A stretch of 40,712 nucleotides of DNA from Terriglobia bacterium (GTDB taxonomy: Bacteria > Acidobacteriota > Terriglobia > Terriglobales > Acidobacteriaceae), in contig JAIQFP010000026.1 in the NCBI GenBank assembly GCA_020073165.1, positions 24,001-64,712 on the forward strand, in the 5' to 3' direction. The notes beneath the pieces were generated by a model that was not told the DNA's origin, did no database searches, and saw nothing but the letters and a program-made list of their open reading frames with translations. The translations under genes were made by a program, and so were the position numbers. Positions within the stretch are counted from its first letter, which is position 1, and every line of letters starts with the position of its first letter. Shown piece by piece: positions 19,036 through 22,947 of the stretch.

Positions 19036-19544
19036 CTGCGAACCTCACCCCCACGCTGATCTCGACTGACCTTTCGCGCCGCCTGCCCCGGCGGCAGCGC
19101 ATCGCGCATCTCGCGCACAGTGCGCTTGAACACCGGATGCCGCACCTCCGGCGCAATCTCCGCCAGCGGCTCCAGCACAAACCGCCGCTCGTGCAAAGCC
19201 GGGTGCGGGATGGTCAGCCCCTGGGTATCCACAATCGAGCTGCCGAACAGCAGAATGTCAATATCAATCGTCCGCGGTCCCTTGGTCTGCGTCCGCCGCC
19301 GGCCCATCTGCTGTTCAATGTCGAGAATCCCCGCCAGCAGTTGCTTCGGCATCTTCTCCGTGTCGAGCGTGACCGCGCAGTTCAAGAACCAGGGCTGCGC
19401 CGTCAGCTCGACCGGTTCCGTCTCGTAGAAAGACGAAACCGCAGCCACTGCCCCCAGTTCCGCCAGCCGGCCGATGGCCGCGTTCAGGTTGGCCGCCCGG
19501 TCGCCCACATTCGATCCCAGTGAGAGATAAGCCAGTTTGTGCAT
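19029..19544 (-). CDS. folK: 2-amino-4-hydroxy-6-hydroxymethyldihydropteridine diphosphokinase
   Basis: 171 residues. MHKLAYLSLGSNVGDRAANL, then FYETEPVE, WFLNCAVTLDT and the HPPK signature ranging from GPRTIDIDILLFG to PHPALHERRFVLEPLAEIAP are all present. FolK transfers pyrophosphate from ATP to 6-hydroxymethyl-dihydropterin in folate synthesis. Start ATG 19544 is the family start; 27 upstream residues are rejected. The last residues after about 160 (KVSRDQRGGEVRSG) and the stop codon run into a palindromic repeat, so the C-terminal tail may have been rewritten by repeat insertion. No other folate gene is adjacent. Confidence 0.93.
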   Translation of the reverse strand: MHKLAYLSLGSNVGDRAANLNAAIGRLAELGAVAAVSSFYETEPVELTAQPWFLNCAVTLDTEKMPKQLLAGILDIEQQMGRRRTQTKGPRTIDIDILLFGSSIVDTQGLTIPHPALHERRFVLEPLAEIAPEVRHPVFKRTVREMRDALPPGQAARKVSRDQRGGEVRSG

Positions 19545-19684
19545 TGCCGGATAGTTTCCAGTTTCCCGTTCCCGGATTCCAGCAAAAAATCTCCCCCCCG
19601 GATTTCCCACGCTATCAGCCACCACCCACCCGTGACCTTAGTCACCTTCTCGCCTCCGAACCCGCGGGCTACCATCAAACTGCC

Positions 19685-20386
19685 ATGGTCCTGGAATCAC
19701 TCCTCCTCAGTCGCGATCCCCAGGTAGTTCGCGTCCTGCGCCCGACTCTGGAGAAACTGTCGGTGGAGATCGAAGTGTGCCGGGGCGCCCGCTCCGGCGG
19801 TGAGATCCTGTCTTCCGAAAAGTTTGACGCGGTGATTGTGGACTGCGACGACCTGCAAGGCGGCCTCGACGTGCTCGCCGGCCTGCGCAAAGGCACCAGC
19901 AACCGGAATTCCGTCGCCTTCGCCATCCTGAACGGCAACACCACCACCCAGAAGGCGTTTGAGCTGGGCGCCAACTTCGTGTTGCAGAAGCCCATCTCCC
20001 CGCTCAACGCCATGCGCTGCTTCAGCGCCGCCCTCAGCTTCATGGAGCGCGAACGCCGTCGCTACTTCCGCCACCCCATCGAGATCCCGGTCACGGTGGT
20101 GTTTGGCCAGGGCCAGGAACTGAAGGCCACCACCACCAATATCAGCGAAGGCGGCATGGCCATCCGCTTCCGCGGCAGGTTGCCCAAAGGCGGAATCTCC
20201 AAGGTGGTGTTCACCCTGCCGGACATGCCTTCCTCGATGGAGCCCAAGGCCACCCTGGCCTGGGCGGACGGCGCCGGACGCGCCGGCCTGCGCTTCCTCG
20301 AAGTCCCGCAGAAGTCCCGCGAACTGCTGGAAGCCTGGCTCACCCAGCAGCTGCAGATACAGGAGAAGGCTCCCGCCAAGAACTAG
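19685..20386 (+). CDS. Receiver-like domain plus PilZ domain protein
   Basis: 233 residues. Residues about 1-120 resemble a CheY-like receiver: DAVIVDCDDL supplies the candidate phosphoacceptor Asp, and FVLQKPISPLNAM supplies the conserved Lys-Pro. Residues about 125-225 form a PilZ domain with the c-di-GMP signature RRYFRHP (RxxxR-type) and NISEGGMAI (D/NxSxxG), ending AGLRFLEV. It may link phosphorelay input to c-di-GMP binding. The acidic pair before the phospho-Asp is not obvious, so phosphorylation is uncertain. Start ATG 19685 is chosen over a longer frame whose extra 55 residues are antisense to folK. Confidence 0.85.
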   Translation: MVLESLLLSRDPQVVRVLRPTLEKLSVEIEVCRGARSGGEILSSEKFDAVIVDCDDLQGGLDVLAGLRKGTSNRNSVAFAILNGNTTTQKAFELGANFVLQKPISPLNAMRCFSAALSFMERERRRYFRHPIEIPVTVVFGQGQELKATTTNISEGGMAIRFRGRLPKGGISKVVFTLPDMPSSMEPKATLAWADGAGRAGLRFLEVPQKSRELLEAWLTQQLQIQEKAPAKN

Positions 20387-20429
20387 CAGGCTCCGAAAAA
20401 ACTCGGCATCCAGCCGCCGATTTGAAAGA

Positions 20430-20481: not shown

Positions 20482-21075
20482 CTATATGCTTATCCCGCCC
20501 CCGAGCCGCAGAATTCCGGGCAAGGGGCGCGGCTTGAACGGCACCTTCACCAGCTCGGCTGGACCAAGCGAAATTGTGCCCGACCCTTCGAGCATCCCTG
20601 ACTGTATGGCTTTGATTCGAGCGTCTTGCACCTGCAGAATTAGTTCCTTCAGCGTGAGCTCCAACTCTACATCGAACACAATCTCGTAGGTCTGCCCGCG
20701 AAAGCGAATCTCCAGATGAGGATGGTGTTCGGATTTCACTGTGTGTTCGAACACCGGAACCGAAGCAAGTTCGCCCGGTGGATGCTTGCTGCTGTCGGCA
20801 TATTCGGAAAGCACACGATACTTTTGCCAGGCCCCCAGCAAGATATCAGAAAGGTGGGTGCGAAAAAGCTCCAAAGCGTGCCTGCCCAACGAAGCGGCAA
20901 ATGATTTCCAGGGAAAGTACTTCATCTCCTTGAGGAGTTGCAGCTCCAAGGGCGCCAGGGTCTGCGTGGCAAGAATGGCCGCGGTCGCCGCACCTGCAAA
21001 GTTCGCCTCGGTGAGATCGAATAGTTCCCTCAGCGTAACCGCCTCCGCACCAGAGTGTGACTCAGCTTTGTTCAT
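20482..21075 (-). CDS. Hypothetical soluble protein, partner of the PASTA-PKD protein
   Basis: 197 residues with no signal peptide or membrane segment and no family I can name. The N-terminal 60 residues are helical and Ala/Leu-rich; the C-terminal half looks beta-rich (HLEIRFRGQTYEIVFDVELE) and ends in a Gly/Pro-rich tail. Its ATG overlaps the stop codon of the upstream PASTA-PKD gene (ATGA, 21072-21075), so the two are translationally coupled and probably work together. Because the upstream protein has a cytoplasmic tail, a complex at the inner membrane is possible (inference). Confidence 0.72.
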   Translation of the reverse strand: MNKAESHSGAEAVTLRELFDLTEANFAGAATAAILATQTLAPLELQLLKEMKYFPWKSFAASLGRHALELFRTHLSDILLGAWQKYRVLSEYADSSKHPPGELASVPVFEHTVKSEHHPHLEIRFRGQTYEIVFDVELELTLKELILQVQDARIKAIQSGMLEGSGTISLGPAELVKVPFKPRPLPGILRLGGGISI

Positions 21076-22088
21076 GATTGACCACGTTTCGTTCTGAGGC
21101 TGTGTTTATCCGCAGCCTCCAGGTATTGATTGCCCTCCGAGGGAAACGCTCGTATCAGCACCGCGTCTTCCCCGCGGACACGTGGAACTTGGGGAATCGT
21201 CTGCTGCCCTGCATCAGTCTTTGCCGACACCGCAATCTCTTGCATCCGCCTTCGTACTCGGCGTCTTCTTGCCACCCTCCGGAGCACCTCCGCCACGGCG
21301 CCGAGGGCAACGACGCCGGCAGCAACTTCCCACGGTAGATCGCTATTCCTTTTCCTCTCTGGAGTTTCCGACGGGGTTGGATGGGGCACAACGGGTGCTG
21401 CCTTAGGCTCCTTTATCGTCGGTGGCTTGTTCTGTTGCGACTCAGGCCCTCCCACCGCCGACTGCTCAATCCTGATCTGTACCGTATCGCTCGTTGCCAG
21501 AATCACCTCGTTATCTTCGAGCGCAGTCACGCTAATCCCACACTCACATGGGCTGGCGTACACGTGTGTCCGCGTGGATTCGCTGATTGTCTCCAAGGTC
21601 CCGTCTCCCCAGTCGAACCGGTACGTTGCATTGGTGAGCGGCTGAAGGGAAGCCGTAGCCTCGATCGTGTCGCCCACGCGGGCCGCCTGAGGGATCCCCG
21701 TGAGCGATAGCTGGTAGGTTGTCGGAACTGGCGGGGGAGCCGGGACCGTAAGCGTCAGCTCAACCACCCTAACTCCTCTTGCCGGTGACCCGGCAACCGG
21801 CAGTTGGTCGCTGACGACTGCGCCTTCGACAAGCTCCCCGATGCATCTTCCCACTAAGTGAACTTCGCTGAGCAGTGTTTGCTTGGCTTGGTCGCAGGTC
21901 TGTCCCCTCACATCGGGTACAGTGGGACCGACATACTGGGCCGCGGCTGCGCTTGCCTTTCTAGCCGTCTTAGGGGCTGATTGAACTGGGACTTGGGAGT
22001 GTAGAGATGGGTCTGGGAAGAGAGCCGCCATACACACGGCCATCAGAAACGTTCTGCCTGAGGGCCTGATCAAAAACTGCATTCCCAT
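21072..22088 (-). CDS. Membrane protein with extracytoplasmic PASTA and PKD-like domains
   Basis: 338 residues. N-terminal signal (about 12-30); PASTA domain about 54-115 (VPDVRGQTCDQAKQTLL, then GAVVSDQLPVAGSPARG), with two Cys (65, 82); PKD/Ig-like domain about 125-210 (YRFDWGDGTLETISE, the family WGDG turn), Cys181 and Cys183; Pro-rich linker; membrane helix about 252-270; a strongly basic stop-transfer (RRVARRRRVRRR); cytoplasmic tail of about 55 residues. It resembles the ectodomain of a PASTA kinase without the kinase. PASTA domains bind muropeptides or uncrosslinked peptidoglycan in kinases and PBPs; ligand here unknown. A near-consensus promoter lies about 100 bp upstream. Confidence 0.78.
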   Translation of the reverse strand: MGMQFLIRPSGRTFLMAVCMAALFPDPSLHSQVPVQSAPKTARKASAAAAQYVGPTVPDVRGQTCDQAKQTLLSEVHLVGRCIGELVEGAVVSDQLPVAGSPARGVRVVELTLTVPAPPPVPTTYQLSLTGIPQAARVGDTIEATASLQPLTNATYRFDWGDGTLETISESTRTHVYASPCECGISVTALEDNEVILATSDTVQIRIEQSAVGGPESQQNKPPTIKEPKAAPVVPHPTPSETPERKRNSDLPWEVAAGVVALGAVAEVLRRVARRRRVRRRMQEIAVSAKTDAGQQTIPQVPRVRGEDAVLIRAFPSEGNQYLEAADKHSLRTKRGQS

Positions 22089-22190
22089 GTCGGCTCACCC
22101 GCATGAATAACGTTTCCAGGTTTTGGGGCCGTGGGTTCAACCAGGGCGGCGAAGGTAACCAGTGCCAAGTGGAACTCTCAAGCGAGGCTG

Positions 22191-22218
22191 AGTATATACG
22201 TCTCTGTCTCGTTGTCAA
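22191..22218 (-). promoter_or_regulatory. Sigma-70-type promoter of the PASTA-PKD operon
   Basis: On the minus strand, TTGACA (22218-22213), a 16-bp spacer and TATACT (22196-22191) match the consensus at 11 of 12 positions. Transcription would start near 22184, leaving a leader of about 96 nt before the ATG at 22088. Confidence 0.72.
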
Positions 22219-22265
22219 CCAAGGGTTTCCGGTCGCATGGAACCGCCGAACCCCAGCCCCAGAGA

Positions 22266-22440
22266 GCCTGCCCTGAGCGAACCCTGAGTCGAGACGAAGG
22301 GGAGTCGAATGGGTGCGGAATAGTGCAGCCCAGGGCGTAAGCCCTGGGTCAGGAGTGCGCATTGAGCCAGTCCCGGAGGGACGACAGACAATTCGGCAGG
22401 AGCTGCGGGGAAAACCGGAGAAAGACGAAACTTTTCCATG
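22266..22440. repeat. Composite of palindromic and dispersed-type repeats
   Basis: Contains a perfect 8-bp hairpin CCCAGGGC-gtaa-GCCCTGGG (22329-22348) and a 5-bp hairpin GTCCC-gga-GGGAC (22370-22382). Upstream lie two copies of a CCTGAG-type motif followed by GACGAAGGGG (about 22270-22300). This block directly abuts the truncated REP-associated transposase and has no credible ORF. Confidence 0.65.
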
Positions 22441-22590
22441 ACCTTTCTGATGGAGCTGGGAATAGCGCCGCAGCAAGTCGAGATAAACGCGTCGGTCGGC
22501 ATCGCCGGCCAGAATGAATTGGCGGGCGTTTCCAAGCTGCGTAACGTGAGGGGGGACGTCGACAGCGATGACGCGAGTCAGGCGAGCCAC
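22440..22590 (-). pseudogene. Truncated REP-associated tyrosine transposase (IS200/Y1 family, RAYT)
   Basis: From a GTG at 22590 the frame reads VARLTRVIAVDVPPHVTQ, then GNARQFILAGD and LDLLRRYSQLHQ, the characteristic N-terminus of TnpA_REP/RAYT proteins. Identity stops after about 48 residues, near 22445, where palindromic repeat sequence begins. The HUH motif and the catalytic Tyr, expected further downstream, are absent, so this is a relic. RAYTs mobilise REP palindromes, which matches the repeats next to it. Confidence 0.75.
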
Positions 22591-22947
22591 GTCAGATAAA
22601 GCAGCGGAAAACGTCCCGTCTGTCCCCGGTTTGCACCGCGCCATTGCCCCTCAGGGTCTTGGCCACGATGGACAGACCGCATCGCCACGCCGAGCCGCGT
22701 ACAAGAGTGTCCGCGCCACACAAGTTGGGTGCAGGCCTCTTCACCCTATCTGCATTCTCGGGAAAACCAACACCTCGCCCCCAGACTACGCCCACCTGCT
22801 GTCAAGCCCCCTAAAACCCCAATTTCCTCCCAACCCGCTCACCCCAAAGGGAAAATAAAATCCTCCCCCATGTCCCATTTACCCTCTCCCATGTGCTATT
22901 CTTAAAGTAGATAGTAAGAAAATTTACATAGCTCGAAGGACAGTGTC
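22591..22947. other. Intergenic stretch without a recognised gene
   Basis: About 360 bp between the transposase relic and the small ORF. It has C-rich, low-complexity parts (22770-22870) and an AT-rich end (22900-22930). Frames in it are short and not protein-like. The AT-rich end may carry a promoter for the small ORF, but no confident -35/-10 pair was found. Confidence 0.5.

Follow-up and report, generated by a model that had tools for sequence, protein, structure and literature searches.

What do two overlapping genes do for a cell when the first encodes a membrane protein with PASTA and PKD domains and the second a soluble protein of no recognised family? Genes A and B raise this question in the window (the whole 40.7-kb stretch of DNA analysed here), where the initial annotation had seen a possible envelope-sensing pair. 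We propose as most likely that A, an envelope receptor or tether with a single membrane pass, uses its flexible tail to dock B, which would act as a non-enzymatic adaptor. Both genes lie on the minus strand, and their open reading frames (ORFs) were confirmed at the coordinates below, which are given with the evidence for each feature.

22191..22218, minus strand: sigma-70-type promoter TTGACA-N16-TATACT (11/12 consensus match)
21072..22088, minus strand: gene A, membrane protein of 338 aa (ORF; Pfam PKD and sub-threshold PASTA; A directly 5' of B in 25/25 testable intact loci)
21756..21920, minus strand: PASTA domain of A, residues 57-111, approximate (Pfam below cut-off; confident model; relatives above cut-off)
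21465..21710, minus strand: PKD domain of A, residues 127-208 (Pfam; Foldseek and VIA matches to solved PKD domains)
21237..21332, minus strand: membrane helix and basic juxtamembrane stretch of A, residues 253-284 (helix in model; sequence)
21075..21239, minus strand: tail of A, residues 284-338, with two DxGxQ-like motifs (alignments A4 and A5; Embleya tail matches)
20482..21075, minus strand: gene B, soluble protein of 197 aa (ORF; AlphaFold2 model; purifying selection in relatives)
20403..20420, minus strand: terminator-like hairpin with a T run, 3' of B (possible operon end)

Gene layout and the anatomy of protein A

The 4-nt overlap of genes A and B, ATGA, holds both the start codon of B (ATG) and the stop codon of A (TGA), and the two-gene operon with a tight stop/start overlap described in the initial annotation is borne out. 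M3 is an alternative possible start of A. The promoter lies about 100 nt 5' of A and is, as had been claimed, near consensus; two sites of this quality (spacing 16-18) were observed in the window, and 100 Markov resamplings gave 0.04 on average. The nearest relative, G073, has TTGACA-N16-TATAGT (11/12) near its A gene; the site falls inside the longest ORF of that gene, and the true A start is therefore probably further downstream. The other 21 loci, scanned at a spacing of 15-19, reach 10/12 in three (G415, G408, G735) and at most 9/12 in 18, and the promoter is thus not shared throughout the family. The hairpin 3' of B is possibly the operon end; its position alone speaks for this, with two terminator-like hairpins found in the region versus 2.5 expected.

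Two further ORFs flank the pair. On the plus strand, 19520-20386 encodes a PilZ protein that also has a receiver-like part, its Pfam response regulator match being slightly under the cut-off; this gene is convergent with B, and the terminator-like hairpin separates the two. On the minus strand, the start (22450-22644) of a 224-aa ORF at 21970..22644 resembles by eye the N terminus of a REP-associated transposase, and a Pfam search with the full ORF gave no match at 1e-3; it may thus be a decayed remnant lying 5' of the promoter.

Protein A consists, in order, of a signal-like start, a PASTA domain, a PKD domain, one membrane helix, a very basic stretch and a tail of about 55 residues. The PKD assignment is certain: the domain passes the Pfam cut-off (E 1.7e-7, 31.6 bits versus 23.5) and matches solved PKD domains in fold (Foldseek E 1e-5; VIA Z 11.0, rmsd 2.2 Å, 84 aligned), just as first annotated. 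The accompanying claim of a PASTA domain stands in part. Its region is modelled with a block of pLDDT above 90 and 14 of 24 A proteins have a PASTA match at E <= 0.01, but the window's own copy is below the Pfam cut-off (E 0.0017, 18.7 bits versus 23.2). The single helix with a very basic stop-transfer and tail is present as annotated, the helix at 253-284 in the model leading into the Arg-rich stretch RRVARRRRVRRRM. By the positive-inside rule, a basic stretch after a helix places the following segment in the cytoplasm, and from this rule and the order of signal, ectodomain, helix, basic stretch and tail we infer that the tail of A is cytoplasmic. Modelled alone, the tail has a confidence under 50 at residues 285-311 and 329-338 and a possible hairpin at 321-335.

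The initial annotation had likened this layout to a PASTA kinase receptor with its kinase replaced by a separate partner, and here the comparison fails. PASTA kinases have the kinase N-terminal and the PASTA domains C-terminal, with the boundaries given for PrkC placing the kinase at 1-270, the helix at 349-373 and the ectodomain at 378-664 (PMC3601408). Relative to those boundaries the topology of A is reversed, and no kinase is found among the Pfam matches of window A or the 23 B proteins, each searched to E 1, or among those of 24 A proteins at E <= 0.01. Like the PASTA Ser/Thr kinases PknB, PrkC and StkP, A has one membrane helix, a probable PASTA ectodomain expected to contact peptidoglycan and an inner part next to the membrane; unlike them, the A-B pair has the reverse topology, no kinase, a PASTA domain replaceable by PKD or other beta domains, and a separate soluble partner. 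The PKD domain itself is shared with collagenase PKD and SorCS2 (Foldseek E 1e-5; VIA Z about 11), in which it sits within enzymes, surface proteins or sorting receptors with no relation to B.

The window's own genome has no PASTA kinase among its PASTA loci in a search that did not list the window's weak PASTA, so that a kinase with equally weak PASTA domains would escape it. Two other loci have PASTA matches above 1e-3: one encodes a protein of 279 aa, the other what looks by eye like a penicillin-binding-type protein. The former (L087 1321-2160) has three PASTA domains and a hydrophobic N-terminal segment and is kinase-free.

Occurrence, pairing and inheritance

B was found in 10/396 genomes of the window's phylum by a single-protein search, and by profile searches in 14/399 genomes of the window's class and 9/162 genomes of another class (a repeat gave the same result); these three samples overlap and hold 24 different B-bearing genomes in total, window included. 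B is also present in a Syntrophobacterales MAG (1/46 genomes searched in its class), two Caballeronia plasmids and two Embleya replicons. The window's own genome has no second copy, and tblastn with window B gave no match in phages.

A lies directly upstream of B on the same strand in 22/22 testable genomes of the window's phylum. Left out of this count are G759, with a PKD-like fragment (by eye) and a truncated B at a locus that is decayed or misassembled, and G860, with B at a contig start. Together with the Syntrophobacterales MAG and the two Embleya replicons, A is upstream of B in 25/25 testable intact loci, which rules out chance adjacency; far from being rarely adjacent, the two genes are co-inherited. 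Across 23 loci A and B overlap by 4 nt in ten and by 8 nt in seven and are separated by a gap of 3 to 113 nt in six, with starts in relatives picked by us from ORFs and overlap lengths depending on the chosen B starts. A is 113 nt upstream of B in the Syntrophobacterales MAG and overlaps B by 4 nt at both Embleya loci. The Embleya genes (L046 8610-10501; L081 4811-6621) are unannotated in the plasmid collection.

The sole solo case is that of the Caballeronia plasmids, where B has no A upstream; the two records share the same region and are counted once. A tail profile search of the Caballeronia plasmid found nothing, and the same search also missed both known Embleya tails. In Caballeronia L012 (8632-10470) the solo B and a DUF4157 gene converge, and upstream of B lies an ATP-binding cassette gene with the look of ABC-F; a gene similar to the latter follows B in L014. 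A link to contractile injection systems, considered from the DUF4157 gene, was dropped, as no such gene was noticed by eye at the other loci. Neighbouring genes vary between families, and by eye no third gene is common to all loci.

The sequences of both genes were compared in close relatives. dN/dS of B was computable in six close pairs (0.04, 0.12, 0.11, 0.13, 0.16 and 0.29), the window versus G073 being saturated. These values rule out a spurious ORF: B is genuinely coding and under purifying selection. Whole-A dN/dS in the same six pairs, in order, is 0.16, 0.39, 0.24, 0.28, 0.19 and 0.55, several of these ratios being rough with a dS that exceeds 1 (1.4, 1.6, 2.7). For the last 60 codons of A the ratio is defined in five pairs, with values from 0.15 to 0.24, and the tail, too, is for the most part under purifying selection. 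Both B and the last 60 codons of A have a dN below that of whole A in 5/5 pairs with enough changes, and in the same five pairs the protein identity of B and of the tail is above that of whole A. In the sixth and nearly identical pair, G329/G233, the identity is 0.995 for B versus 0.985 for whole A, and 0.983, not higher, for the tail.

The B tree and the tree of the A C-terminal part have their main clades in common across 25 loci (Spearman 0.37; permutation maximum 0.36 of 2000); since linked genes share trees without binding, this correlation is no proof that the two proteins bind. Members of the window's family are scattered over the B tree, and, G073 apart, every B of that family is more distant from window B than the B proteins of several other families are; this suggests transfer of the A-B unit or an old duplication.

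Exchangeable ectodomains and a near-constant tail

Ectodomains were scanned singly in 21 A proteins (the window and 20 others). Seven have PASTA and PKD domains, six PASTA only (with 3 to 9 copies), six PKD only (one, G329, below the Pfam cut-off) and two neither, G609 being Pro-rich and Embleya Ig-like (by eye only). With no PASTA match in 8/21, PASTA is, as far as Pfam detects it, not the constant part of A. The tail profile, from which the Embleya tails were absent, nevertheless matches both of them (E 2.4e-5 and 3.3e-5 for one sequence; 0/500 shuffles as good, each), despite an Embleya ectodomain unrelated to other A ectodomains. By these comparisons B is constant, the tail nearly so, and the ectodomain exchanged.

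Searched against 150 genomes of the family, the 19-tail profile gave E < 1e-10 in four, all of them B carriers and all of them rows of the profile; the informative part is therefore that no other genome did better than 6.6e-5, in a set of 150 that may include further B carriers. The DNA behind the weak matches G210, G960 and G945 was read, and no A-like protein was present. In one genus (G103, G233, G329, G609) the tail motif is lost (by eye) and B is kept, and the tails of G329, G609 and G103 score no better against the tail profile than shuffles. The four motif-less tails (L019, L020, L021, L038) were excluded from tail alignments A4 and A5, and plasmid-record rows from alignment A3. Near A in this genus there is a gene that looks like a beta-propeller by eye (L019 7552-8097, L020 12037-13608, L021 12354-13703). 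When the A tail was compared with B by profile, no match resulted.

A receptor or tether that has its own adaptor would be expected to combine an outer part open to exchange with a near-constant tail and an unchanging soluble partner, which is the pattern seen here. Strings of PKD domains, Pro-rich stalks and up to nine PASTA domains resemble interchangeable spacers, and A could accordingly be a structural tether that anchors an assembly of B in the cytoplasm to the wall or periplasm for positioning or scaffolding, with no signal passing; the Pro-rich ectodomain of G609 fits a spacer better than a ligand sensor, and B has no recognisable effector domain. However, the patchy occurrence (10/396, 14/399 and 9/162 genomes in overlapping samples) is unlike that of a housekeeping scaffold, and a third gene shared by the loci is missing (by eye). 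We consider a pure tether somewhat unlikely, although it is the strongest of the rival explanations.

Protein B and its possible roles

The AlphaFold2 model of B (pLDDT 85.6, pTM 0.76) has helices at 15-93 and an eight-stranded beta domain at 103-196. Searched up to E 1, window B matches nothing in Pfam, NCBIfam or PADLOC; in PHROGs it has a single match (E 0.083). Across 23 B proteins there are scattered weak matches to Pfam, NCBIfam and PADLOC, of one or two members each, the best being single members at E 0.0034 (NCBIfam), 0.011 (Pfam) and 0.021 (PADLOC). Membership in a Pfam, NCBIfam, PADLOC or PHROGs family is thus ruled out, with weak scattered matches at best, and the partner is as unrecognised as it had first appeared. 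Sequence searches of the PDB with the B and tail profiles reached E 0.25 at best. Fold searches with B gave a best PDB E of 0.14, a best viral E of 0.0077 with a TM of 0.16 and a best Z of 3.7, none convincing; the absence of a convincing fold match for the model does not prove a new fold.

Pores of the gasdermin type and MACPF pores rank highest in these uniformly weak fold matches (Z 3.7, rmsd 6.9, 97 aligned; Foldseek E 0.14), and on this basis B might be a pore-forming or other toxic effector silenced by A in abortive or competitive defence. A Z under 4 at an rmsd over 6 Å can, however, arise by chance from long antiparallel strands; moreover, window A and B are without a PADLOC match up to E 1, and among the 23 relatives just two PADLOC families are matched, each weakly and by a single protein (best E 0.021). 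We regard a toxic B as very improbable.

Membrane anti-sigma/sigma pairs of the RsgI type are two-gene units with varied, exchangeable outer domains, a constant inner part and a soluble partner, all of which the A-B pair shares. By this likeness A could release B, which would then be a transcription factor or sigma-type factor of divergent sequence, and in the model the N-terminal half of B is helical. Unlike in RsgI-type pairs, B matches no sigma or DNA-binding family and the A tail of about 55 residues has no anti-sigma match. No sigma, anti-sigma or HTH family is among the matches listed for the 23 B proteins (Pfam to E 1; NCBIfam to E 0.1), and no sigma or anti-sigma domain is among the listed Pfam and NCBIfam matches of the A and B proteins, from which a very divergent one could escape. 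Such a membrane-held regulator seems to us improbable, if less so than a toxin.

Only H111, P119 and L147 are invariant in the 23 B proteins, and F19, W83, F134, I154 and L185-P186-G187 are nearly so; in a 20-row alignment with Caballeronia and Embleya only H111 and P119 are invariant. The conserved residues look structural rather than catalytic. As B lacks a conserved set of catalytic-type residues, it is most likely an adaptor.

Proposed function of the pair

In the receptor-adaptor reading, which we give an even chance, A and B are halves of one inner-membrane complex. A would be exported and held by one helix, presenting in the periplasm a series of small, exchangeable beta domains (PASTA followed by PKD in this case), of which PASTA probably contacts peptidoglycan or its precursors. 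Inside, the short, flexible and basic tail, bearing a paired D-x-G-x-Q-x-[LI]-E-like motif, would fold upon binding B, probably adding a beta hairpin to its eight-stranded beta domain. B, presumably translated in step with A from the overlapping start codon, would be held at the membrane and would pass on, or be released by, changes in the clustering or wall contact of A. Tail-B binding, a wall ligand, signalling and an output are the parts that we infer here. The models are consistent with docking, the tail being of low confidence alone and B well folded, and it is plausible that the pair senses the envelope. Against the receptor-adaptor reading are the motif-less tails of one genus, in which B is kept all the same, the Caballeronia B without an A upstream, and what appears in Pfam as a sub-threshold PASTA in the window.

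A broader reading, which we put forward tentatively and hold less probable than the complex itself, is that of an undescribed, horizontally moving transmembrane signalling module, in which an outer sensor (PASTA, PKD, Ig-like) would be freely exchanged and a short tail would dock a new family, B, that carries the output, in at least three phyla including that of Embleya (Actinomycetota). No description of such an A-B pair was found in the openly licensed literature, whose limited coverage makes this weak evidence of novelty.

If A and B form one complex, the pair would link domains that face the wall with the cytoplasm in a compact, kinase-free way, and B would found a protein family without an assigned function. 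The swapped ectodomain, near-constant tail and constant partner predict that the tail binds B and that any ectodomain could be grafted onto it.
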